Source: Hymenobacter montanus
GTDB lineage: Bacteria; Bacteroidota; Bacteroidia; Cytophagales; Hymenobacteraceae
DNA length: 64,000 nucleotides
Direction of reading: 5' to 3'
Assembly: GCF_014699115.1 (NCBI RefSeq)
Contig: NZ_JACXAD010000002.1
Location: 186,001 to 250,000, forward strand
Below the pieces are notes generated by a model that saw nothing but the letters and a program-made list of their open reading frames with translations, was not told where the DNA came from and did not search any database. The position numbers and the translations under genes were made by a program. Positions 3,469-25,251 of the stretch are shown one piece after another (the stretch's first letter is position 1; each line of letters begins with the position of its first letter).

Positions 3469-5034
3469 ATGCTTCTCACCATCTCCACCACCCACCAGCC
3501 GGCCACCGACCTCGGCTACCTGCTCCATAAAAACCCGGCTCGCCTGCAAAGCGTGGAAATCACCGGTGGCCAGGCCCACGTGTTTTACCCCGAGGCCACC
3601 GCCGCGCGCTGCACCGCCGCCCTGCTGCTCGACCTCGACCCGGTGGGCCTAGTGCGCGGCCGGGGCCCCGGCGGCCCCGATGGCTTCGCGCTGGAGCAGT
3701 ACGTCAACGACCGGCCCTACGTGGCCTCGTCGTTCCTGAGCGTGGCGCTGAGCAAAGCCTTTGGGACGGCTATGAACGGCACCTGCAAAGACCGGCCAAC
3801 CCTGGCCGCGCAGCCCCTGCCGCTGGCGGCGAAGGTGGCCGTGGTGTCGGCCCCCGGCCCCGACTGGCCACGGCGTCTGTTCGAGCCCTTAGGGTACGCG
3901 GTGGAAGTCGACTCCACCTTGCTCGACCCCACCCGGCCCGAATGGGGCGACAGCTCTTATTACACCCTCACGCTGCGCCACGAAGCCGTTCGCCTGAGCG
4001 ACTTGCTTACCCACCTCTACGTGCTGCTGCCGGTGCTCGACGACGACAAGCACTACTACATCGACCAGCAGGAAGCCGACAAGCTGCTGCACCGCGGCGG
4101 CGCCTGGCTGCCTCAGCACCCCGAGCGCGGCTTTATTACGCGCCGCTACTTGCGGTACCTGGCGGGCATCGTAAACCCCACGCTGGCCCGGCTAATGGAG
4201 GGCGAAGAGCTGGACGCACCCACCGAGGTGCCCACCGAAACCTCACCCCCTGACCCGGCAACTGCTTTACCCGCGGAGTCCGCACGAGAGGGGGCACCGG
4301 AAATGCTCCTGGCACAATCGCCAGACTCTTCCTCTCCATCGGACTTTGCGCATAAAGCAGCTGCGGGGCCAGGGAGCGAGGGGCCCGTGGAGCACGACCG
4401 CAAGCTCAGCCTCCACGACCAGCGCCTCCAACAAGTGGCCCACGAAATCTACCAGCTGGCCCCCAAGCGGGTGCTCGACCTGGGCTGCGGCGAAGGCAAG
4501 CTGCTGCGGCTGCTCCTGCGCCAGCCGAAAATCGAGTACATCCTGGGCATGGACGTGGCCCACCAGGCCCTGGCCCGCGCCGCGGCCCGCCTGCACCTTG
4601 ACGAGATGCCCCCGCGCCAGCGCGCCCGGCTCGACCTTATTCAGGGCTCGCTGCTCTACCGCGACGACCGCCTCGCCGGTTTCGACGCGGCGGCCCTGGT
4701 CGAAGTCATCGAGCACCTCGATGAAAACCGCCTCGCTGCACTCGAAGTCGTGGTGTTTGGCCACGCCCGACCGGGGCACGTATTCGTCACCACGCCCAAC
4801 GCGGAGTATAACCAGCTCTTCGAGAAGCTGGATGCCGGCGAGTTCCGTCACGCCGACCACCGCTTCGAGTGGTCGCGCGCCGAGTTCGCCGCCTGGGCGG
4901 CGGGGGTGGCGGAGCGCCACGGGTATCAGGTGCGGATGGTGGGCATGGGCGAGGAGGTAGAAGGCGTGGGGTCCCCTTCGCAGATGGCGGTGTTTAGGTT
5001 AGGGTCGGAGGTTACTCCTGATACTGATAAATGA
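3469..5034 (+). CDS. hen1: Bacterial Hen1, 3'-terminal RNA ribose 2'-O-methyltransferase
   Basis: Methylates the 2'-OH at the 3' end of broken RNA before Pnkp seals it, so that the repaired junction resists re-cleavage. The product has 521 residues: an N-terminal Hen1-specific domain (MLLTISTTHQPATDLGYLLH, ALEQYVNDRPYVASSF), then a SAM methyltransferase with motif I VLDLGCGEGKLL. The metal-binding motif is EVIEHL (E412, E415, H416) with RHADHRFEW (H461/H464). Residues ~258-306 are a low-complexity linker encoded by a palindromic repeat that recurs in pnkp. The last ~90 codons are duplicated downstream (5702-5975). It overlaps the convergent orphan gene by 23 bases. pnkp, normally its neighbour, is displaced by about 2.8 kb. 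Confidence 0.94.
   Translation: MLLTISTTHQPATDLGYLLHKNPARLQSVEITGGQAHVFYPEATAARCTAALLLDLDPVGLVRGRGPGGPDGFALEQYVNDRPYVASSFLSVALSKAFGTAMNGTCKDRPTLAAQPLPLAAKVAVVSAPGPDWPRRLFEPLGYAVEVDSTLLDPTRPEWGDSSYYTLTLRHEAVRLSDLLTHLYVLLPVLDDDKHYYIDQQEADKLLHRGGAWLPQHPERGFITRRYLRYLAGIVNPTLARLMEGEELDAPTEVPTETSPPDPATALPAESAREGAPEMLLAQSPDSSSPSDFAHKAAAGPGSEGPVEHDRKLSLHDQRLQQVAHEIYQLAPKRVLDLGCGEGKLLRLLLRQPKIEYILGMDVAHQALARAAARLHLDEMPPRQRARLDLIQGSLLYRDDRLAGFDAAALVEVIEHLDENRLAALEVVVFGHARPGHVFVTTPNAEYNQLFEKLDAGEFRHADHRFEWSRAEFAAWAAGVAERHGYQVRMVGMGEEVEGVGSPSQMAVFRLGSEVTPDTDK
4241..4385. repeat. Palindromic element inserted in frame in hen1
   Basis: Starts TCACCCCCTGACCC and ends with an inverted version of itself: the reverse complement of 4342-4383 repeats the left arm, including CTGCTTTATGCGCA in place of CTGCTTTACCCGCG. 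It encodes about 48 residues rich in Pro, Ser, Ala and Glu at the boundary between the N-terminal and methyltransferase domains, without interrupting the frame. The same family lies in frame in pnkp (8522-8646); shorter, less similar relatives precede carB and carA. Confidence 0.75.
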
Positions 5035-5617
5035 AGCGACGGCCCCGCATCAGGTGCGCGCTTCTGCGGGCCAGAATTAATTTTTCTGCCGGAAAAACCT
5101 GCTCAATAGCAATCGTGTCGCTACTATCAATTATGCTTCCCAAATTAGCTACGAGGGCAATATAAAAATTGTCCAGACCATTGGAGTGCATAAGGTTTGG
5201 TTCTGCGGCAAACTCTTTAGGACCGTATATAACCGGCCCTTCTGCCAGATAACTATAATATTTCTGTATATGCCCCGTGCTGTCAACGATGTACTTATCC
5301 TCAATGTCGAATTCGAGGTCCTGTACTTTGAAGGAGCACGCATAAGGGCCAGCTTGTAGAAATTCTTCAACGATATTATCGCACTTGGCATTATTTGGAC
5401 TTAGGTCTTCGTCTAGCACTTGATATTTAGCTACTAACCGGGCCGTAATAGGCAGCTTGGTATCAGGCTGTGTAGTACACCTTGTAGGCAGCTTGGTATC
5501 GGGCTGTGCAGTACACCTTGTAGGCAGCTTGGTATCGGGCTGTGCAGTACAACTTGTAAGTCTCAACGCGATTATCAAACCAAATAATACCTGCTTGGGT
5601 GCGGAATAAAAAATCAT
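5012..5617 (-). CDS. Putative lipoprotein with three 12-residue repeats
   Basis: Unrecognised protein of 201 residues, convergent with hen1. The N-terminus (LFGLIIALRLTSC) reads as a signal peptide with lipobox L-T-S-C. It is followed directly by three copies of C-T-A-Q-P-D-T-K-L-P-T-R, so each unit brings another Cys after the lipidation site. The remaining ~150 residues are acidic and probably globular, with no family I recognise. The gene is much more AT-rich than hen1 and sits between the true hen1 3' end and its duplicate, which indicates acquired DNA. An immunity-like or envelope role is only a guess. Confidence 0.6.
   Translation of the reverse strand: MIFYSAPKQVLFGLIIALRLTSCTAQPDTKLPTRCTAQPDTKLPTRCTTQPDTKLPITARLVAKYQVLDEDLSPNNAKCDNIVEEFLQAGPYACSFKVQDLEFDIEDKYIVDSTGHIQKYYSYLAEGPVIYGPKEFAAEPNLMHSNGLDNFYIALVANLGSIIDSSDTIAIEQVFPAEKLILARRSAHLMRGRRFIYQYQE
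5451..5558. repeat. 36-bp tandem repeat, three units
   Basis: Units at 5451-5486, 5487-5522 and 5523-5558 start GGCAGCTTGGTATC and differ by one to three bases. They lie inside the lipoprotein gene, in frame (12 codons each), just after the lipobox. Confidence 0.9.
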
Positions 5618-5701
5618 CTTTGGGCGTTGGCGTTCCAGGAGTCTTTATCCGGAAATCTATGATGAAGATAATGAGCTTTGTATCAAAGAAGCTGAAGACG
5701 C

Positions 5702-5975
5702 GACGACCGCCTCGCCGCACTCGAAGCCGTGGTGTTCGGGTACGCCCGGCCGGGGCACGTATTCGTCACCACGCCCAACGCGGAGTATAACCAGCTCTTC
5801 GAGAAGCTGGATGCCGGTGAATTCCGTCACGCCGACCACCGCTTCGAGTGGTCGCGCGCCGAGTTCGCCGCCTGGGCGGCGGGGGTGGCGGAGCGCCACG
5901 GGTATCGGGTGCGGATGGTGGGGATGGGCGAGGAGGTAGAAGGCGTGGGGGCCCCTTCGCAGCTGGCGGTGTTTA
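5702..5975 (+). pseudogene. Detached second copy of the hen1 3' end
   Basis: Corresponds base for base, without gaps, to 4723-4996 of hen1 at an offset of 979. I count 12 mismatches in the 268 bases from 5708. It encodes RLAALEAVVFGYARPGH through the H-x-x-H metal region to the hen1 C-terminus and then runs into unrelated sequence up to a stop at 6025. It lacks the N-terminal domain, SAM motif I and the EVIEH motif, so it cannot be active. Its end coincides with the stop codon of the next orphan gene on the minus strand. It most likely arose by recombination of a foreign hen1-plus-neighbour segment into this locus. Confidence 0.92.
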
Positions 5976-6890
5976 ATCTAAAACAGTCATACTCTCCTGA
6001 GAAAACTCTTCTTCATCGTCTTTAGGACGAAAGTTAACCATTTTATTATATGGTAATTTCTCCGCGAATCCAGATAGAGCCTCATCAAATTTAATTGAGT
6101 TAAAGATGTCATGCAGTCGATTTACATCGGCTGGATGAATTATTTTTCCTGCGTCAGAATCACGAATGAAATTTTCAAAATGCGCTTGAAACGTCTTTGT
6201 TGAAATGAGCCCTGACTCTTCAACCTTCTCAAACAACTTCTGGTATCTTTTGACGAGGAAGTAATAATCTACCTGCGGTACCTGAATAGGTAAACTTTCA
6301 GGCCATACTGCTATAGTAATAATGCGCCTGTCGGCAATAGCCTGAAAAACCATGACCTTCGGGACAAAGTATTCACTGCCCAATTGCGCTTGGATTCGCC
6401 TTCTATTGAAATTGTGTTTCCATACCGCGTTTGATGCAGGGAGTGGGTAATAATTGAACTCTGATTTCCCGTAATATTGGGCAGAAATTCGAGCGTTAAT
6501 CTCCGACCAGTTTTTGTAGAGTTCGCCTTTTGCTGGTTGCATTAGATACTCTTCAGTTTGAGGATTCAAAACATAAAGGCCAAGGTCGCCAATCATTTGA
6601 TCAACGAACAAGAAGGCCTCTTGACCAAAGAAATCAGGACGTATAAAATTTAGGTTAAAGCTGAATCTAGTGTCATCAAAATCAGGGTAAATCTCTGAAT
6701 TAGTTGTCTCTGGGTCAGTTTCAGGTTTGTTTAAATCAAATGAGAAATAAACTTCCGTGTCGTCATTCTCATAGAACCACTGGTTTTCCTGCTCGTTGGC
6801 CGGGCACAGGTTAGCTGTTAAATAAATACTAATGTCCTTTTCGGAAGTTTGTTGGGTTTTATGCTTAAAGAAATAGAGGTCGTAGCTCAT
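5973..6890 (-). CDS. Uncharacterised protein in the hen1-pnkp interval
   Basis: Protein of 305 residues starting MSYDLYFFKHKTQQTSEKD. This N-terminus recalls small families of unknown function often found among accessory and immunity-type genes, but I cannot assign one with certainty. It has no signal peptide or membrane segment and is rich in aromatic and acidic residues. The DNA is distinctly AT-rich against the GC-rich hen1 and pnkp. Its TAA stop lies within the last bases of the duplicated hen1 tail, so this gene plus the tail behaves like one inserted unit. A role linked to RNA damage or defence is inferred from position only. Confidence 0.75.
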   Translation of the reverse strand: MSYDLYFFKHKTQQTSEKDISIYLTANLCPANEQENQWFYENDDTEVYFSFDLNKPETDPETTNSEIYPDFDDTRFSFNLNFIRPDFFGQEAFLFVDQMIGDLGLYVLNPQTEEYLMQPAKGELYKNWSEINARISAQYYGKSEFNYYPLPASNAVWKHNFNRRRIQAQLGSEYFVPKVMVFQAIADRRIITIAVWPESLPIQVPQVDYYFLVKRYQKLFEKVEESGLISTKTFQAHFENFIRDSDAGKIIHPADVNRLHDIFNSIKFDEALSGFAEKLPYNKMVNFRPKDDEEEFSQESMTVLD

Positions 6891-6932
6891 CTTGCGCTGG
6901 GTTCCTATGGATGTGTTTTGTCGGGGTTGTTA

Positions 6933-7049
6933 TCACTGTTTATGCCTATTCAACGTCCAGTTGAATTTCTTTTGCACCTCCGGTTTCAGGGTGGTGAAGA
7001 ACTCCAGGTAGAAGCGGTAGAATACGCTGCGGATAAACTCATCGGCCAT
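6933..7049 (-). pseudogene. Remnant of a HigB/RelE-type toxin
   Basis: A 38-codon reading frame starting MADEFIRSVFYRFYLEFF and ending QKKFNWTLNRHKQ. The pattern FYLxFFxxLKPEVQKKFxWTL matches the N-terminus of Gp49-like/HigB toxins, which normally run to about 110 residues. The frame stops just after this segment, so the toxin core is missing. The assignment rests on pattern recognition alone. Confidence 0.5.
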
Positions 7050-7214
7050 GCTCCGAAGTTAATGGATTAGCTAACAATCTCTAAGCAGAAGCATACCTTC
7101 ATCCACCCGTGGGAAGTCTTCAAATTCGGCCAGGTCGGTAGCCGTCGCGTCCGTCAAGACTGGTCAAGTCCGGCTTTCGGGAGTTAAAGCGTGGTATTTA
7201 TCCATACGGATAAC
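7050..7214. other. Short gap with a reading-frame tail
   Basis: On the minus strand, 7074-7163 is an open 29-codon tail (VLTDATATDLAEFEDFPRVD, then GMLLLRDC and a stop) preceded by a stop codon. It looks like the end of a lost gene. Together with the toxin remnant it shows that this interval has gained and lost several genes. Confidence 0.4.
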
Positions 7215-7763
7215 TTACTCCTCGTTAATTCTCTGGGCTATTAATTGACGTTGAGACCTGCTTTCCCGTTTGTGCCTTTCAGCCTTTAATTGCTTCGCAT
7301 AGCTATTACTATCAGTAAAGAACCATAGGTCCCCTATTTCAGCTAGGGGAGAGCCTTGCCTGATCATCACTCCATTGAGATGGCACGTGTCATAGCCGCA
7401 AAGGTGCTTTGAGTAGATGCCAAAATTTCGATGGTTCAATCTTTTGCTTTTCCAGATTTTCTGCTGGTTGGTTCGGATGTTTTCCCAGGCCTGGTCTTCA
7501 TCCGCCTTGGTTAGTTGCTGGCCCAGCGTATTTACCGCAAAATACGTTTGAGGGTCTTTCAATTGCAGGAAGTCAAACGTTTTCGGAAACGCCGCAATGG
7601 CGACCTGCCGCAACGCCACTTTCTGTTCCAGGCTCAGCTTGGTGGTTTCTACGATGGAGCGAAATAGCCCGAGGGTGTTGAAATCGGTGAACTTCTTATG
7701 GTTCTCAATCAGGTGCAAATATTCGCCGTAGCTGAGCGTGCTGAATGGCTTGCCGACTTTCAT
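7215..7763 (-). CDS. Uncharacterised 182-residue protein divergent from pnkp
   Basis: Soluble, basic protein starting MKVGKPFSTLSYGEYLHLIE. It has a helical N-terminal half with many Leu, Lys and Gln, then a segment GYDTCHLNGVMIRQGSPLAE with the only two Cys close together (CGYDTC), and a highly charged C-terminus (KRESRSQRQLIAQRINEE). I do not recognise the family. Its start is 67 bases from the divergent pnkp start, so the two could share a control region. Base composition is intermediate between pnkp and the AT-rich cargo. It could be a dedicated partner of the locus or just another passenger. Confidence 0.65.
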   Translation of the reverse strand: MKVGKPFSTLSYGEYLHLIENHKKFTDFNTLGLFRSIVETTKLSLEQKVALRQVAIAAFPKTFDFLQLKDPQTYFAVNTLGQQLTKADEDQAWENIRTNQQKIWKSKRLNHRNFGIYSKHLCGYDTCHLNGVMIRQGSPLAEIGDLWFFTDSNSYAKQLKAERHKRESRSQRQLIAQRINEE

Positions 7764-7830: not shown

Positions 7831-10593
7831 ATGCCCCAAGATACCCTCAAAGTCCCGGAACTCTCCCTTATCCTCCTCATTGGCAGTACGGGGGCGGGCA
7901 AGTCCACGTTTGCCCGGCGCCTGTTCCAGCTCCCGGAAATCGTGTCGTCGGATTCCTGCCGGGGCCTGGTGGCCAACGATGAAAACGACCAATCGGCCAG
8001 TGGCGACGCCTTTGAGCTACTGTACTATCTCGTGGCCAAGCGCTTGAAGCGTGGACTGCTCACCGTGGTGGATGCCACCAACGTGCAGGAAGAGGCCCGC
8101 AAGCCCCTGGTGGCCCTGGCCCGGCAGCACCACGTGCTGCCCGTGGCGATAGTGCTCGACGTGCCCGACGCCGTAGCCCACGAGCGCAACGCCCTGCGCC
8201 CCGAGCGGCGGCACATGGGCCCGCACGTGGTGGCCCGCCACCGCCAGCAGCTGCGCAAGAGCCTGCGCCATCTCAAGCAGGAGGGCTTTCGGCACATCCA
8301 CCTCCTGCGCGGGGTAGCGGAGGTGGAAGCCGTGCAAGGCATTGTGCGCGAGCGCCTCTACAACAACCGCCAGGAGGAAACCGGTCCCTTCGACATCATC
8401 GGTGACGTGCACGGCTGCTACGAGGAGCTGGTGCTGCTACTGGAGAAACTGGGCTATAAAGTGATAGAGGAGCCGATCAATGACGCGCGGGACTTGGGCG
8501 TGCGGGTGGTGGCGCCACTGGCTTCACCCCCTGACCCCGCATCTGCTTTATGCGCAGAGTCCGGGGGCGAGGGGGCACCGGCCATGCTGCCGACAGAATC
8601 GGCTGGCTCCCCATCTCTGAAGGAGAGGGGGCCGGGGGGTGAGGCCCGCCGCAAGGCCATCTTCCTCGGCGACTTGGTCGACCGCGGGCCGGCCTCGCCC
8701 AAGGTTCTGCGCCTGGTGATGAGCATGGTAAAATCGGGGGACGCCCTGTGTGTGCCGGGCAACCACGACATCAAGCTTTTGCGCCACCTCAAAGGCAAGA
8801 ACGTGGCCGTGAAGCATGGTTTCGCCGAAACGTTGGCCCAGCTGGCTGCCGAGCCGGCCGCATTTGCCGGGTCGGTGCAGGAGTTCCTCGATGGCCTGGT
8901 GAGCCACTACGTGCTCGACGGGGGCAAGCTGGTGGTGGCCCACGCCGGCCTCACCGAAGCCATGCAGGGCCGGGGCTCGGGTGCCGTGCGGGCCTTCGCG
9001 CTGTTTGGCGAGACCACCGGCGAAATCGACGAGTTCGGCCTGCCCGTGCGCTACGAGTGGGCCCGCGAATACCGGGGCCGGGCCATGGTGGTGTACGGCC
9101 ACACGCCGGTGCCCGATCCCGAATGGCTGAATCACACCATCGACATCGACACCGGCTGCGTGTTCGGGGGGCGCCTCACGGCCCTGCGCTACCCCGAACG
9201 CGAGCTCGTGGCCGTGCCCGCCGCGCAGGTCTACTGCGAGCCCGTCCGCCCCCTCAACTACCGCGCCTTCCAGCTGCAAGCCCAAAGCCAGAGCCCCCCA
9301 GGCACCGAGCACCAGGCACCAGGCACCAACGCCCAGCAGGAGCACGACGACCTGCTCGACATCCGCGACGTGACGGGCAAGCAGTTTATTGAAACGCGCC
9401 TGATGCGCGGGGTCACCGTCCGGGAGGAAAATGCGGTGGCAGCCCTGGAGGTGATGAGCCGGTTTGCTCTGCCCCCCAAGTGGCTGCTGTACCTGCCGCC
9501 CACCATGGCGCCCACCGAAACTTCGGCGCTGCCCGATTTGCTCGAACACCCCACCGAGGCCTTTGCCTATTACCACAAGCTGGGCGTGGAGCGCGTGGTG
9601 TGCGAGGAAAAACACATGGGCAGCCGGGTAGTCGTGGTGTTGGGCCGCGACGAAGCGGCCATTCAGCGCCGCCTCGGGCTAGTGGGCGAGGGCCAGGGCA
9701 AGTGCTACACCCGCACCGGGCGCAACTTCTTCACCGATGCGGCCCTGGAAACGGCCTTCCTGGTGCGCCTGCGCGATGCCCTGAGCACGGCCAACTTCTG
9801 GGAGCGATTCGATACCGACTGGGTGTGCCTCGATGCCGAGCTGCTACCCTGGTCGGCCAAGGCGCAGGAGCTGATTAAAAGCCAGTACGCCGCCGTGGCC
9901 GCCGCGGCCAACGCGGCGCTGCCCCAGGTCGAAGCCGTGCTGGCCGCAGCCGCCGCCCGCGACCTCGACGGTGCCGACGCCCTGCTGGCGCGCACGACTG
10001 CCCGCCGCCAGGCCGCCACCCACTACGCCGACGCGTACCGCCGCTACTGCTGGCCCGTGCACGGCCTGGACGACCTGCGCCTGGCGCCCTTCCACCTGCT
10101 GGCCACGGAAGGCCGCACTTATTTCGACCGCGACCACGCCTGGCACATGGAAACCCTGCGCACCCTCGCCCTGGCCGACCCTGGCCTACTCCGCGCCACG
10201 CCCTACCGGGTGGTGCCCTTGGCCGACCCGGCCGAAGTAGAAGCCGCCATTCAGTGGTGGACCGACCTGACCGCCGCCGGGGGCGAGGGCATGGTGGTGA
10301 AGCCCTACGATTTCGTGCCCCAGGGCAAAGGGGGCCTCCTCCAGCCCGCGCTCAAGTGCCGGGGCCGCGAGTACCTGCGCATTATCTACGGACCCGATTA
10401 CCTGCTGCCTGGCAACCTCGACCGCCTGCGCCAGCGCAACGTGAAAGCCAAGCGCACCCTCGCCCTGCGCGAGTTCGCCCTCGGGGTGGAGGGCCTGGAG
10501 CGCTTCGTGGCCGGGCAGCCCCTGCGCCGGGTGCACCAGTGCGTGTTCGGCGTGCTCGCCCTGGAAAGTGAGGCAGTGGACCCGCGGCTGTAA
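7831..10593 (+). CDS. pnkp: Bacterial Pnkp: polynucleotide kinase-phosphatase-RNA ligase
   Basis: End-healing and sealing enzyme for cleaved RNA, acting with Hen1. The 920 residues show all three modules. Kinase: P-loop GSTGAGKST (residues 18-26). Metallophosphatase: D188-IIGDVHGC, FLGDLVDRGP (D281), GNHD (N311-D313), HAGL and YGHTP. Ligase: nucleophile motif EEKHMGS with Lys594, and later EGMVVKPYD. Two low-complexity stretches break the usual sequence: residues ~231-272, encoded by the same palindromic repeat as in hen1, and ~485-505, a PGTEHQAPGT-type stretch. Both keep the frame and all motifs, so the enzyme is probably active. The family is about 850-870 residues, which fits the extra length. 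Confidence 0.96.
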   Translation: MPQDTLKVPELSLILLIGSTGAGKSTFARRLFQLPEIVSSDSCRGLVANDENDQSASGDAFELLYYLVAKRLKRGLLTVVDATNVQEEARKPLVALARQHHVLPVAIVLDVPDAVAHERNALRPERRHMGPHVVARHRQQLRKSLRHLKQEGFRHIHLLRGVAEVEAVQGIVRERLYNNRQEETGPFDIIGDVHGCYEELVLLLEKLGYKVIEEPINDARDLGVRVVAPLASPPDPASALCAESGGEGAPAMLPTESAGSPSLKERGPGGEARRKAIFLGDLVDRGPASPKVLRLVMSMVKSGDALCVPGNHDIKLLRHLKGKNVAVKHGFAETLAQLAAEPAAFAGSVQEFLDGLVSHYVLDGGKLVVAHAGLTEAMQGRGSGAVRAFALFGETTGEIDEFGLPVRYEWAREYRGRAMVVYGHTPVPDPEWLNHTIDIDTGCVFGGRLTALRYPERELVAVPAAQVYCEPVRPLNYRAFQLQAQSQSPPGTEHQAPGTNAQQEHDDLLDIRDVTGKQFIETRLMRGVTVREENAVAALEVMSRFALPPKWLLYLPPTMAPTETSALPDLLEHPTEAFAYYHKLGVERVVCEEKHMGSRVVVVLGRDEAAIQRRLGLVGEGQGKCYTRTGRNFFTDAALETAFLVRLRDALSTANFWERFDTDWVCLDAELLPWSAKAQELIKSQYAAVAAAANAALPQVEAVLAAAAARDLDGADALLARTTARRQAATHYADAYRRYCWPVHGLDDLRLAPFHLLATEGRTYFDRDHAWHMETLRTLALADPGLLRATPYRVVPLADPAEVEAAIQWWTDLTAAGGEGMVVKPYDFVPQGKGGLLQPALKCRGREYLRIIYGPDYLLPGNLDRLRQRNVKAKRTLALREFALGVEGLERFVAGQPLRRVHQCVFGVLALESEAVDPRL
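8522..8646. repeat. Palindromic element inserted in frame in pnkp
   Basis: The left arm TCACCCCCTGACCCCGCATC, then CTGCTTTATGCGCAGAGTCC, matches the element in hen1 closely. The right end GGGGCCGGGGGGTGA is the inverted form of TCACCCCCCGGCCCC, also present before carA. It encodes ~42 residues between the first phosphatase motif (GDVHG) and the second (GDLVDRG), a surface-loop position. Confidence 0.78.
9285..9345. repeat. Short CAGGCACC-type repeat inside pnkp
   Basis: Three successive GCACCAGGCACC-like units encode a PGTEHQAPGT-type stretch between the phosphatase and ligase modules. Direct repeats of this type are usually intergenic; here they keep the frame. Confidence 0.55.
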
Positions 10594-19913: not shown

Positions 19914-20275
19914 TAATCCAACATTTTCTAAGCGGCGGTTTGCCTTAGCTGCTGCAACAGTTGCTGCCCTAGAACTTAGAACCTAGAACTGAGAACCTCG
20001 CCTTTTTAGCCCCAAGCTGGCTCTTTTTTCGGTCTAAGAGGCTATTTGAGTACCTAAAAACGGTCATGCTCGATCTGGCGTCCGCTGGTCGAAGCAGGAC
20101 GTTCAAAAGTGATTTTTTATTAACTCAAACAGTTTCCAAGTTCTAAGCTCTAAAAGCCAGTGGAGCCAGACTGCTTGGTGATGCGGTTATTTTTTGCGGG
20201 TACTTAGCCAGGGCCAACAGGGTGGGGCAGCGGCTCGGGGTACTTTTGTGGAGTCCGCCGCAACCTACACTGCTT
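19914..20275. other. Intergenic with dispersed short repeats
   Basis: Contains CTAGAACTTAGAACCTAGAA-type reiterations near 19969 and a GGTCATGCTCGAT...GGTCGAAGCAGGAC unit near 20064, related to the GTCATGCTGAGCGGAG family seen at 41098 and 45582. TACTTTTG at 20241-20248 fits a Bacteroidota -7 box, 28 bases before the next start, but no matching -33 TTG was seen. Confidence 0.4.
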
Positions 20276-21055
20276 ATGCTCCCCCGAATCCAGACGGCTT
20301 TGGCCGAACTTGAAACCACCCGCAGCCTCCGCATCCTGTACGCCTGTGAGTCGGGCAGCCGGGCCTGGGGCTTTCCGTCGACCGATTCCGACTACGACGT
20401 GCGCTTCGTTTATTGCCACCCGGCCGACTGGTACCTGACGCTGGACGAAAGCCCCGACACCCTCGACTTTGCCGTGAACGATGACCTGGACCTGGCCGGC
20501 TGGGAGCTGCGCAAGGCCCTGCGCCTGCTGCGAGGCAGCAACGCCGCCCTGTTTGAGTGGCTGCAGTCGCCGGTGGTGTACCACGAGGCGCTGGATTTTC
20601 GGGCCCGGCTGGCGCCCCTCTTGCCGGCGGCCTTCAGCCCCAGAGCCGGCCTGCACCACTACCTGGGCCAGCTCCGGCGCGGGGTAGCAGAGGACCTGGC
20701 CGGGGAAGAAGTACGGCTGAAACGGCTGTTCTACGCCCTGCGCTCGGCCCTGGCCGCCCGCTGGATTCGGGAGCGCGGCACCCTACCCCCCATGGCGCTG
20801 GCGCCGCTGCGGGCGGTGCTGCCGGCCGCCTTAGGGGCTGAGGTCGACCAGTTGCTAGCCGCCAAAGCCACGGCCGACGAGAAAACGCTGGTGCCCGTGC
20901 CGTTGGCGCTGGCCGAGTTTCTGCGGGCGGAATTTGCGGCCGGGACGGCGGCGCGCGACACGCTGCCGGTGCCCCGCGCCGGCCACGTGGCACCGGCGTT
21001 GGACCAGGAGTTCCGGGGTTTATTGAGTGAGGCATTCAGTTCGTCGCAGCCCTAG
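20276..21055 (+). CDS. RlaP/YcgL-like nucleotidyltransferase, copy 1
   Basis: 259 residues from MLPRIQTALAELE; the frame is open further upstream but without the family pattern. The polymerase-beta active site is clear: YACESGSRAWGFPSTDSDYD (G27-S28 motif, D39 and D41 carboxylates), then VRFVYCHPADWYL and FAVNDDLDLAGWELRKAL. This is the COG3541 layout, found with RNA ligases in RNA-repair operons (RlaP, RNA ligase-associated polymerase-beta protein). The next gene is a second member of the family. Likely task: adding a nucleotide to damaged RNA ends; the chemistry is not established from sequence. Confidence 0.87.
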   Translation: MLPRIQTALAELETTRSLRILYACESGSRAWGFPSTDSDYDVRFVYCHPADWYLTLDESPDTLDFAVNDDLDLAGWELRKALRLLRGSNAALFEWLQSPVVYHEALDFRARLAPLLPAAFSPRAGLHHYLGQLRRGVAEDLAGEEVRLKRLFYALRSALAARWIRERGTLPPMALAPLRAVLPAALGAEVDQLLAAKATADEKTLVPVPLALAEFLRAEFAAGTAARDTLPVPRAGHVAPALDQEFRGLLSEAFSSSQP

Positions 21056-22328: not shown

Positions 22329-22485
22329 CCCAATCCGAACCCGGCAGGGGCGTTTTTTATGGGTTCGAAAACTCCTTTACTCAGCAGCCCCTGATAGAAT
22401 AAAAGATTCATTACAATCCTTTACTCGTAAATAACGACCATAAGCCACCACTGAGATTGTTGGTCTGCAAGTAGTACAACTTTGG

Positions 22486-23598
22486 TTAATCCAAATCCAC
22501 GAGTAACTCCAGCCCTTGCTTGCGGCGTAAGGCCGGGGGAATATGGCTCAAAGGGTTGCGACGAGCATCCAGCCGTTTGAGTTGGGGCAAGGCCGCTAAG
22601 CTCTCGGGTAAGGTTTGCAACTGGTTATCAGCGCAATCGATTTTTTCTAACTGGTGTAGCTGGCCCAAGCCTTCCGGCAGGGATTGCAGGTGGTTAGAAA
22701 AGCACGAGAGCGTTTGCAGGTTGTGTAACTTTCCCACGCTTTCCGGCAGGGCTTGCAGTTGGTTATCCGCGCAAATGAGTTCTCGCAATTTAGCTAATCC
22801 ACCCAGGCTTTTAGGCAGGGTTTTCAGTTGGTTAGAAGAACAAATGAACCTTTTCAGATTGTGTAATCCGGCTAAGTTTTCGGGTAGGGCTTGTAGTTGG
22901 TTACGAGCGCAATCGAGTAGTAGCAAGTTATGTAACCCACCCAGCCTTTCGGGCAGGGCTCTTAATTGATTGGAGTAGCAAATGAGCGAGTGCAAATTGT
23001 ATAAGACTGCCAGGCTTTCCGGTAGGGCTTGTAGTTGGTTACGAGCGCAATTAAGCTCTTGCAACCTGTGTAACGCGCCTAGACCTTCGGGCAGGGCTTG
23101 TAGGCGGTTCCGAAAGCAAATAAGCCTTTGCAAGCTGTGCAGTTCTCCCAGGCTTTCGGGCAGGGCTTGCAGTTGATTCTTAGCGCAAAAGAGTTCTTGC
23201 AAATGCCGCAGCTTTCCCAGGTTTTTGGGCAGGGCCTGGAGGTAGTTCTTATAGGAATGAATCCTTCGCAAGTTCTGCAACTCTCCCAGACTTTCGGGCA
23301 ATGTGGTAAGTTCGGTTTCTATCTCCAGTTGGGTAAGTTGGAATAGCTCAGTAAGGCCAAAGGCATCCAGCATAATGCTAGTGCTCCTAAAAGCGAGTTG
23401 GTAAAGGGGTAGCAAGCTGCCCAAATACTGTTGGAAAGCGGCTGGATTGCCTAACTCCTCGGCTAAAAGCAAGGCGTACTGAATATTATCCTCTTCTCCT
23501 GAGCGCACCAACTGGATCAGTTCGGCTACCTGACCGGCAAGGGTGTCTGAGCCGGAAAGGGAATCCTGATCGGAAGGAGACGTTTTGTCAGGAATCAT
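22486..23598 (-). CDS. Leucine-rich-repeat protein, 11 repeats
   Basis: 370 residues from MIPDKTSPSDQDSLSGSDTL. An acidic head (AGQVAELIQLVRSGEEDNIQ) is followed by a short helical region and eleven 23-residue repeats of the form LPESLGxLxxLxxLxCxxNQLQA. A cap closes the protein (LKRLDARRNPLSHIPPALRR). The Cys in xLxCxxNQL recurs in every repeat except the first and last. There is no signal peptide or catalytic domain. It is a paralogue of the gene at 23710. LRR solenoids bind proteins; the partner is unknown. Confidence 0.9.
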   Translation of the reverse strand: MIPDKTSPSDQDSLSGSDTLAGQVAELIQLVRSGEEDNIQYALLLAEELGNPAAFQQYLGSLLPLYQLAFRSTSIMLDAFGLTELFQLTQLEIETELTTLPESLGELQNLRRIHSYKNYLQALPKNLGKLRHLQELFCAKNQLQALPESLGELHSLQRLICFRNRLQALPEGLGALHRLQELNCARNQLQALPESLAVLYNLHSLICYSNQLRALPERLGGLHNLLLLDCARNQLQALPENLAGLHNLKRFICSSNQLKTLPKSLGGLAKLRELICADNQLQALPESVGKLHNLQTLSCFSNHLQSLPEGLGQLHQLEKIDCADNQLQTLPESLAALPQLKRLDARRNPLSHIPPALRRKQGLELLVDLD

Positions 23599-23709
23599 AG
23601 CTAGGCTGATGAGTTCATATACGGATGAGTTGATCGCCCCTGCCTTCAATCCTTCATTTTCTCCCTGCGGGGTGGTCCGACGTTTCGGTGAGGGGGCTTT
23701 AGTCGCTTA

Positions 23710-25173
23710 TCACTTTCGTTGATCTACCAGTAATTTCAATCCTGGCTTTTGACGTAAGGCCGGGGGGATATGGGTGAGGGGATTGGCACGGGCGTCCAGC
23801 CGTTTGAGTTGAGGCAATGCGGCTAAGCTTTCGGGCAGGACTTGTAGGTTGTTGTTGTGACACCTGAACTCCTTCAAATTGTGTAATTCTCCCAAGCTCT
23901 CCGGTAAAGCTTGTAGCTGATTAGCAGCGCAATAGAGCCATCCCAAGTTTTGTAGTAACCCGATGCTTTCGGGTAAGGATTGTAGCTGGTTAGAAGGGCA
24001 GAAGAGCAATTGCAACTGGTGTAGCTGGCCTAAGCTTTCCGGCAAGGCTTTCAGTTGGGTATTCTCGCAAATGAGCTTTTTCAATTGATGGAGCTGTCCC
24101 AAGCTTTCCGGCAAGGCTTGTAGTGGGTTATTACTGCAATTGAGCCATTCTAGGTTGTGTAACGCTCCCAGGCTTTCCGGTAAGGAGGTCAATTGGTTAA
24201 ATACGCAATCAAGTTCTTTCAAATTTCGTAACGCTCCCAGGCTTTCGGGTAAAGCTTGGAGCTGGTTACCAGCGCAATTGAGCCATTGCAATTGGGGTAG
24301 CCCGCCCAGGCTCTCGGGTAAGGCTTGTAACCGGTTGGAAGCGCACTTGAGCGATTGCAAGTTGGGGAGCTTGCCTAGCCCTTCGGGCAGGACTTGTAGC
24401 TGGTTAGAATCGCAATTGAGCCATTGCAGTTGGGGTAGCTCGCCCAGGTTTTCGGGTAAAGCTTGTAGTTGATTATTCTCGCAATAGAGCGCTTCTAGGT
24501 TGGGTAGCTGCCCGATGCTGTCCGGTAATGCTTGTAGTTGGTTATCAGCGCAATGAAGCCATTTCAAGTGGGATAGCTCGCCCAGCCACTCGGGGAGGGC
24601 CGGTAGCTGGTTGTGATCGCAATAAAGCAATTGCAGGTTCTGTAGCTGCCTTATGCTTTCCGGTAAGGCTTGTAGTTGGTTACGAGAGCAATGGAGCCAT
24701 TCCAAGTTTTGAAGCTGTCCCAGGCTTTCGGGCAGGGCTTGTAATTGATTACGAACGCAATCGAGCCTTTTCAGATTGTACAATCCAGCTATGCTCTCGG
24801 GCAGGGCTCGTAGTTGGTTATTATAGCAACTGAGCTCTTGTAAGTTATATAACTCCCCCAGGTTTTCGGGCAAGGCAGTAAGTTTCTTTTCCGGAACCTT
24901 TAGTTGGGTAAGTTGGAATAGCTGAGTCAGGGCCGGGGCATCCCACTTCTTTCGCCGGCGCCCAAAAGCGAGGTGGTAAAGGGGCAGCAAGCTGTCCAAG
25001 TATTGCTGGAAAGGGGCAGGATTGGCTAATTCCTTGGCTAAGCGCAGCGCTCGTTGGATGTGAGCCTCCTTCCCCGAGCGTACTAATTGGATCAACTCGG
25101 CTACTTGCCCGGCGAAGGCGGTTGAGCCAAAAGGGGAATCTTGCGCTGAAGGAGCTTCTTGATCGGGAGCCAT
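23710..25173 (-). CDS. Leucine-rich-repeat protein, 16 repeats
   Basis: 487 residues from MAPDQEAPSAQDSPFGSTAF. Same plan as its downstream neighbour: head AGQVAELIQLVRSGKEAHIQ, a helical linker, then sixteen 23-residue repeats (ALPESLGxLxxLxWLxCxxNQLQ) and the cap LKRLDARANPLTHIPPALRQ. The two genes are 111 bases apart on the same strand and probably co-transcribed. They differ mainly in repeat number, as expected from unequal recombination. A remnant of a third cap lies upstream at 25252-25345. Confidence 0.9.
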   Translation of the reverse strand: MAPDQEAPSAQDSPFGSTAFAGQVAELIQLVRSGKEAHIQRALRLAKELANPAPFQQYLDSLLPLYHLAFGRRRKKWDAPALTQLFQLTQLKVPEKKLTALPENLGELYNLQELSCYNNQLRALPESIAGLYNLKRLDCVRNQLQALPESLGQLQNLEWLHCSRNQLQALPESIRQLQNLQLLYCDHNQLPALPEWLGELSHLKWLHCADNQLQALPDSIGQLPNLEALYCENNQLQALPENLGELPQLQWLNCDSNQLQVLPEGLGKLPNLQSLKCASNRLQALPESLGGLPQLQWLNCAGNQLQALPESLGALRNLKELDCVFNQLTSLPESLGALHNLEWLNCSNNPLQALPESLGQLHQLKKLICENTQLKALPESLGQLHQLQLLFCPSNQLQSLPESIGLLQNLGWLYCAANQLQALPESLGELHNLKEFRCHNNNLQVLPESLAALPQLKRLDARANPLTHIPPALRQKPGLKLLVDQRK

Positions 25174-25251
25174 AGGGAGAAAGAGCGGGCGAACCGTGAG
25201 ACGGCTACAAGCTACCACCAAGATACTCGTCTACAAGCAACTTACCACTTT

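Follow-up and report, generated by a model that had tools for sequence, protein, structure and literature searches.

The 64,000-nucleotide (nt) stretch of Hymenobacter montanus DNA analyzed here (the window; NZ_JACXAD010000002.1, positions 186,001 to 250,000) contains the RNA repair genes hen1 and pnkp with several other genes between them, and it was found that, in Hymenobacter, the gap between these two genes is a hotspot of gene acquisition. The genes within the gap are referred to as cargo. The hotspot likely grows by one-sided homologous recombination in conserved gene ends, with the far end of the incoming DNA joined illegitimately, a reading to which we give a probability of roughly 70%. 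The original prediction, made from the window alone, had already described the interval as an insertion hotspot, and this was supported by the gap lengths, the scatter of cargo families, the hen1 tree and control gaps.

From 256 hen1 loci in species genomes, the best 80 were studied, giving 58 Hymenobacter loci when the window was included; the named loci nearest to the hen1 of the window were from Hymenobacter. Within the fetched stretch, pnkp followed hen1 on the same strand in 54 of the 58 Hymenobacter loci, and the gap between them was longer than 400 bp in 52 of these 54, the remaining two being 69 and 75 bp. Outside Hymenobacter, the gap was 15 to 174 bp in 20 of the 22 loci measured, and 1183 and 5452 bp in the other two. 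The statement in the original prediction that the two genes normally adjoin is thus true outside the genus. The short gaps outside and the long gaps within Hymenobacter indicate that the adjoining state is likely ancestral and that the gap was filled in Hymenobacter.

Cargo was compared in the 33 loci nearest to the window (the close clade; mean pairwise hen1 identity of 84%), using mechanically called open reading frames (ORFs) of at least 95 amino acids (aa). Shorter ORFs and two families overlapping the pnkp start (F3 and F15) were excluded from these counts, and two loci with open intervals, one with pnkp inverted (L010) and one with pnkp off the contig (L027), were kept. The clustering excluded 22 loci of other bacteria and kept L064, which had no ORF of 80 aa. 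A total of 81 cargo ORFs was obtained, 66 of them on the strand opposite to hen1, with a median GC content of 0.46 versus 0.67 for hen1. They formed 44 families, 28 of which occurred in just one locus of the clade. Among the 15 closest pairs, whose hen1 genes were 92.6-97.8% identical, 12 had no cargo in common, or 8 of 11 when the four pairs including L022 or L046, which had no counted cargo, were left aside. The sole same-species pair compared in the close clade (L006 and L008, both labelled H. negativus; hen1 97.8% identical) shared one of six families. Placed on the hen1 tree, most of the shared families (12 of 15) required one change per carrier, and the commonest shared family, F2, needed 9 changes for 12 carriers; these change counts are inflated because 10 of the 32 inner branches were weak. 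When the three cargo genes of the window were followed across relatives, as the original prediction had proposed, the content was found to vary, unlike the stable operon that would have spoken against a hotspot: the 201-aa, 305-aa and 182-aa types occurred in 0, 1 and 12 of the other 57 Hymenobacter loci, respectively. The other Hymenobacter clade (gap median of 3260 bp, 23 loci) was less random, since one large gene, F1, recurred in 18 loci.

Gaps between other neighboring genes of the same loci served as a control. When hen1 lay directly beside pnkp, the gap exceeded 400 bp in 17 of 17 cases. Among conserved neighbor pairs containing neither gene, gaps of this length were found in 0 of 16, 0 of 12, 1 of 10 and 2 of 10 cases, and, contrary to the pattern, in 4 of 7 cases for one further pair. 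The corresponding figures were 11 of 14 for pnkp and its frequent follower, 10 of 13 for hen1 and F2, 1 of 10 for F2 and pnkp, 8 of 9 for a glycosidase-like gene and hen1, and 5 of 11 for a 212-aa gene and hen1. These counts show that the loose part is the surroundings of the RNA repair genes and comprises more than one gap. The frequent follower, presumably a nucleotidyltransferase of the RlaP type, neighbored pnkp in 14 loci; in the window, its relative was found 9.7 kb from pnkp (Table 1).

Within the window, the positions originally given for hen1, pnkp and the three opposite-strand ORFs were all confirmed, and so was the repeated hen1 3' end at an offset of 979 with 12 mismatches. The repeat was ungapped over 270 nt, and its blastn E-value of 1e-122 indicates that it did not arise by chance. 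Bases 5699-5717 also matched hen1, showing that the displaced tail is a longer piece of hen1 minus 60 bp; the missing 60 bp (20 codons, in frame) were lost between two copies of ACCGCCTCGC (4667-4676 and 4727-4736, by eye). As originally described, each tail copy is followed by an AT-rich gene on the opposite strand (GC of the cargo stretches about 0.40-0.46 versus 0.68 at the hen1 end), and the final three bases of the displaced copy (5973-5975) serve as stop codon for the 305-aa gene.

The toxin-gene remnant mentioned in the original prediction was present, but there were really two: a split Gp49/HigB-type gene and the start of a Fic/DOC-type gene. The two HigB-type pieces, the C-terminal one detected at 5628-5696 (tblastn 58%, E 0.001), flank the copied segment in the right order and on the right strand, with residues 37-72 left out. 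To the right of the N-terminal piece, homology to L013 continues to 7093, the base before the pnkp head copy of L013. The ATGCC at 6942-6946 corresponds to the pnkp start in H. armeniacus, and since the sequence from the 305-aa gene start to this point matches that species, the stretch 5699-6946 has the form of a complete 'hen1 tail - 305 gene - pnkp ATG' interval. Judged by these alignments, this segment is located between two pieces of a putative HigB-type toxin gene. The left joint, between HigB and hen1 sequence, shows microhomology (CGCG), and 0-2 bp of microhomology was read from the sequences at the right joint near 6947. A full-length Fic/DOC-type gene holds the place of the remnant in L009 and L014, where it precedes F2 as the remnant does in the window.

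Table 1. Positions of genes, gene remnants and repeat copies in the window
Feature	Position	Strand	Remarks
hen1	3469..5034	+	Intact, 521 aa; Pfam Hen1_L 1.2e-104 and methyltransferase domains
hen1 3' end, source of downstream repeat	4727..4996	+	258/270 identical to 5706-5975
201-aa cargo gene	5012..5617	-	Stop codon overlaps hen1 end; no Pfam family
Gp49/HigB-type toxin gene, C-terminal piece, residues about 73-96	5618..5702	-	Nucleotide alignment to L013 10529-10610
CGCG, 4-bp microhomology at left joint	5699..5702		Common to HigB side and hen1 side; by eye
Displaced hen1 tail, 5'-truncated, with 60-bp internal deletion	5699..5975	+	5699-5717 = 4660-4678; 5706-5975 = 4727-4996
305-aa cargo gene	5973..6890	-	179 proteins at E <= 0.001, query included
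305-aa gene start up to pnkp start ATGCC	6881..6946		Aligns with L031 (H. armeniacus) 10146-10211; L031 pnkp starts at 10207
Gp49/HigB-type gene, N-terminal piece, residues 1-36	6948..7049	-	tblastn 81%, E 2e-15
Fic/DOC-type gene start, remnant	7101..7205	-	tblastn 50%, E 6e-5
182-aa cargo gene, family F2, adjoins pnkp	7215..7763	-	35/120 genus genomes, any place; 13/58 loci including the window
pnkp	7831..10593	+	Intact, 920 aa; Pfam PNKP_ligase 2.4e-178, AAA_33, Metallophos
Relative of the gene often following pnkp in the clade	20267..21037	+	tblastn 74%, E 1e-109

Scars of this kind were searched for by blastn with the native genes masked in the 58 Hymenobacter loci. Displaced hen1 tails and/or pnkp heads were found in 8 of them: hen1 3' ends in the window, L004, L006, L028 and L032, and pnkp 5' ends in L004, L013, L014 and L058. 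Moreover, pnkp 3' ends occurred downstream of pnkp in L004 and L006. Two further matches, at 9423-9471 of L038 (adjoining its own hen1 end) and a 75-nt inverted match in L032, were not counted as scars. Three scarred loci had counterparts without a scar in other species: [hen1 tail]-F22-F2-F4-pnkp in L006 versus hen1-F22-F2-pnkp in L017; [pnkp head]-F10-F2-pnkp in L014 versus hen1-F10-F2-pnkp in L009; and F24-F16-F11-[pnkp head]-F10-F2-pnkp in L013 versus F24-F16-F11-pnkp in L032 and, again, the L009 arrangement. L004 carries two intervals in series, hen1-382 aa-[pnkp head]-F13-[hen1 tail]-macro domain gene-F2-pnkp. Together with the HigB joints, the scars and their unscarred counterparts support the stepwise addition of 'hen1 tail plus cargo' segments that had been proposed. 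The earlier account, which was limited to the hen1 tail, was incomplete: pnkp heads are left as well, the sequence on the outer side of each gene (before hen1 and after pnkp) is variable too, and other genes of the same genome also show tail scars. In L028 (9765-11525) and L032 (9762-11522), a histidine-kinase insertion was observed directly after hen1 in both species; the cargo behind the displaced tail differs, being a DUF3800 gene in L028 versus TPR, HTH_3 and Gp49 genes in L032.

The proposed mechanism would operate as follows. Incoming DNA would pair with the conserved hen1 3' end, or with the pnkp 5' end, and its other end would then be joined illegitimately, so that the flanking gene would stay whole after each event, while the previous gene end and the previous cargo would be moved farther off. 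At the sequence level, this is supported by cargo that varies while its flanks stay constant, by the displaced hen1 tails and pnkp heads, by unscarred counterparts and by the 4-bp microhomology joint; the homologous joint of such homology-facilitated illegitimate recombination we infer from the duplicated hen1 tail. In the window, 'hen1 tail - 305 gene - pnkp ATG' would have entered first by pairing in hen1, its right end being joined into a HigB-type gene that was already present next to a Fic-182-pnkp arrangement. In a second step, 'hen1 tail - 201 gene - HigB piece' would have entered by pairing in hen1 and would have been fused at CGCG with the existing hen1 near 4660, which would account for the present displaced tail. 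These two hen1-anchored rounds, each with an illegitimate right joint, are our preferred reading. The main alternative is that 'hen1 tail - 305 gene - pnkp ATG' was inserted as a single fragment into an intact resident HigB-type gene, with an illegitimate joint on either side, and that the 201-aa gene arrived separately. The order and strand of the HigB pieces and the omission of residues 37-72 are consistent with such an insertion, and by our count it needs about as many illegitimate joints as the two rounds. However, it would leave the borders at the hen1 tail and the pnkp start and the parent orientation unexplained unless pairing guided the insertion, and we regard it as possible but rather unlikely.

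Several observations weigh against growth by one-sided recombination. The best match to the displaced tail of the window was the hen1 of the window itself (258/270, followed by 234/269), a result that internal duplication would also give. Among all pairs, the tail-similarity percentiles of species sharing cargo were 0.85-0.95 for the 305-aa family, 0.02-0.89 for F14, 0.48-0.86 for F7, 0.22 for F25 and 0.00 for F22; consistently raised tail similarity between the sampled species that share cargo was not found, and joint transfer of tail and cargo between them is thus not demonstrated. The claim in the original prediction that the segments came from related genomes was thus not clearly supported. 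No scar was detected in 50 of the 58 loci, nearly all species were represented by one genome, and the identities of the two HigB pieces do not distinguish between the possible orders of events. ComEC and DprA were present, but they were also matched in 10 and 11 of 14 control genomes, Escherichia coli included.

If the hen1 tail had been duplicated within the genome and the cargo had later been replaced or had decayed, no donor genome would be required, and the closeness of the displaced tail to its own hen1 would be accounted for. Such an internal segmental duplication is nevertheless improbable, given that the two tails of the window precede unrelated genes, that the cargo next to the scars in L006, L013 and L014 matches unscarred arrangements of other species, and that the displaced tail of L004 is nearer to the hen1 of H. 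armeniacus (131/140) than to its own (125/137).

The 305-aa gene was found in 3 of 120 genus genomes, each time adjoining a hen1 3' end (the displaced one in the window), and the proteins listed for its family (120 of 179 matches) were mostly from Bacteroidota where named. In H. armeniacus, no other counted gene lies between hen1 and pnkp. In a genome taken to be that of H. psoromatis, its C-terminal part touches hen1 (1194244-1194522), and its N-terminal part (452522-453184) lies beside pnkp (453238-456015), the two parts being 740 kb apart. Near each part is one of two nearly identical 125-aa ORFs, oppositely oriented, which by eye resemble an insertion sequence (IS); rearrangement between these copies would apparently have split an older hen1-305-pnkp arrangement. 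The 201-aa gene was present in 1 of the 120 genomes, that of the window itself, and its protein gave 23 matches at E <= 0.001, the query included. Homologues aligned to 76-80% of its length. At 5449-5558, this gene has three 36-bp tandem repeats that code for PDTKLPTRCTAQ-like units, and the protein start ahead of them looks lipoprotein-like by eye.

The background of such scars was estimated in 1.2 Mb of the own genome, with wrong-side matches as control. On the expected side, eight tail copies were found (hen1, a peroxiredoxin-like gene at C22:285551, an MBL/rhodanese-like gene at C44:25433, two on contig C3, one on C6 and two on C16), as well as five head copies (one on C22, three on C11 and one on C6), compared to seven wrong-side matches (three tails and four heads). 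The C6 matches were tandem paralogues, and at least two C11 pairs were paralogues with a shared start. In 380 kb of the genome assigned to H. psoromatis, there were one expected-side and six wrong-side matches, all in sequences with 9-37 matches, that is, in repeat families. Given the control matches, paralogues and repeat families, the excess of scars over control is modest, and the counts do not represent a rate. The MBL/rhodanese-like gene (C44:25433-26812) has a displaced tail at 22339-22965, with 442 bp at 98.6% identity (L132-L133, G000:C44:22339-26812); this tail is displaced by three ORFs with a GC content of 0.30-0.44, one of them ankyrin-like by eye. The peroxiredoxin-like gene (C22:285551-286015) has a displaced tail at 292918-293073. 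On C16 (L153:8999-11895), an HTH_17/PIN_3 pair lies between convergent genes, with the junction repeated directly over 120 nt (88% identity) and 98 nt (77%). These scars at other genes show that the process is not unique to hen1.

To characterize the cargo, 67 representatives were chosen, of which 64 were included in pooled scans, with 25 of 44 PADLOC families and 25 of 69 Pfam families listed, and 40 of these were scanned singly with Pfam. Among the latter, VWA and NOV_C, macro, DUF3800, Fic, HTH_3, Gp49, GmrSD, DACNV, GGDEF and histidine kinase domains were found, and many proteins had no family. With PADLOC, 7 of 20 singly scanned proteins matched at an E-value of 1e-5 or better, mostly to candidate systems or general domains; the 305-aa and 182-aa proteins of the window, scanned singly, gave no PADLOC match at 1e-5. 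Pfam gave Gp49, HTH_3, Fic and PIN_3, and the names HigB/HigA, glycosidase, RlaP-type, IS-type and ankyrin-like are our assumptions for unscanned ORFs, in part assigned by eye. From their predicted domains, several cargo genes look like toxin-antitoxin or defense genes. The suggestion that the cargo could be immunity, defense or repair-linked genes may apply to some of it, but the cargo is mixed: it includes toxin-antitoxin, Fic, nuclease-like and macro-domain genes as well as many without a known family.

A co-selected island of RNA damage and repair, in which the cargo is present because Hen1-Pnkp repair protects against it, would agree with the Gp49/HTH pairs and the Fic, macro-domain and nuclease-like genes, and PMC4411300 describes a Pnkp1-Rnl-Hen1 complex that repairs ribotoxin-cleaved RNA in vitro. 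In its widest form, the hen1-pnkp-nucleotidyltransferase cluster would be a multi-slot island kept to collect RNA-damaging toxins and defense genes, the host repair enzymes tolerating the damage and gene ends, in place of a recombinase, providing the landing sites. Both versions appear unlikely. Against the first, the cargo also includes histidine kinase, GGDEF, TonB plug and TPR genes besides the many without a known family, and similar scars lie beside unrelated genes of the same genome. Any connection of RNA repair with the toxicity of the cargo is speculative.

Some prophages integrate by restoring the target gene and leaving the old tail at the far end. Site-specific integration into the hen1 3' end as attachment site would likewise produce an intact gene with a displaced tail, and the junction in the window is at the end of the shared Hen1 core (matches of relatives end at residue 508-521), but it is very unlikely. 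Such an element would have a fixed attachment core and an integrase, whereas the point in hen1 where the copies begin varies (window, about 296 of the last 600 nt; L028 and L032, 377; L004, 458; L006, 462; approximate, from different queries), pnkp heads are duplicated as well, and among the Pfam families listed for the 64 representatives (25 of 69, with 40 proteins scanned singly) there was one Y1 transposase and no integrase.

Two other kinds of repeat were observed. A dispersed repeat lies in frame in the linkers of both Hen1 (4243-4379) and Pnkp (8520-8646), 78% identical over 94 nt and with an inverted match as well; a 127-base query from it gave 27 matches in the own genome, itself included. 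We take it to resemble the palindromic elements inserted into coding sequence in Rickettsia. At 22486-25221, two neighboring opposite-strand ORFs (387 and 503 aa) contain 69-bp repeat units, leucine-rich-repeat-like by eye, and their N-terminal parts are alike.

The genes of the bacterial Hen1-Pnkp RNA repair operon, adjoining in other phyla, are split by cargo in Hymenobacter, and no paper naming both Hymenobacter and Hen1 was found in the literature searched. The likeness to Rhs and contact-dependent inhibition loci drawn in the original prediction is a loose analogy. Displaced 3' ends downstream of an intact gene recall their orphan toxin tails, but a swapped C-terminal toxin domain with its immunity gene was not found: the tail stays Hen1, and the cargo is encoded separately, mostly on the other strand. 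Closer parallels are the minimal mobile elements (MMEs) of Neisseria, defined in passages of PMC3082526, which cites Saunders and Snyder 2002 and Snyder 2007. As there, whole-gene cassettes that differ between genomes lie between two conserved genes, with few mobility genes and homologous recombination proposed. In contrast to that system, the comparison here is between species instead of strains, and the cassettes pile up and leave gene-end scars. In Vibrio cholerae, sequential displacement of type VI secretion system (T6SS) effector-immunity modules is explained in PMC5361080, which also mentions Rhs orphan 3' regions, by homology-facilitated illegitimate recombination; PMC2884548 likewise discusses illegitimate recombination as a source of variable segments. 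The T6SS arrays share the conserved upstream anchor, the illegitimate far joint, the older gene pushed downstream and the arrays of displaced genes, whereas here no effector gene is replaced, the anchors are RNA repair enzyme genes and pnkp heads are left too. By analogy, the Hymenobacter case may be viewed as a variant of the MME architecture, with the mechanism proposed for the T6SS immunity arrays of V. cholerae.

The locus offers a record, readable step by step, of how genes that lack evident mobility functions come to lie beside conserved gene ends in a bacterial chromosome, and its scars give the relative order of the insertions. Moreover, the location yields a list of candidate toxin, immunity or defense genes without an assigned family, the 305-aa family included.

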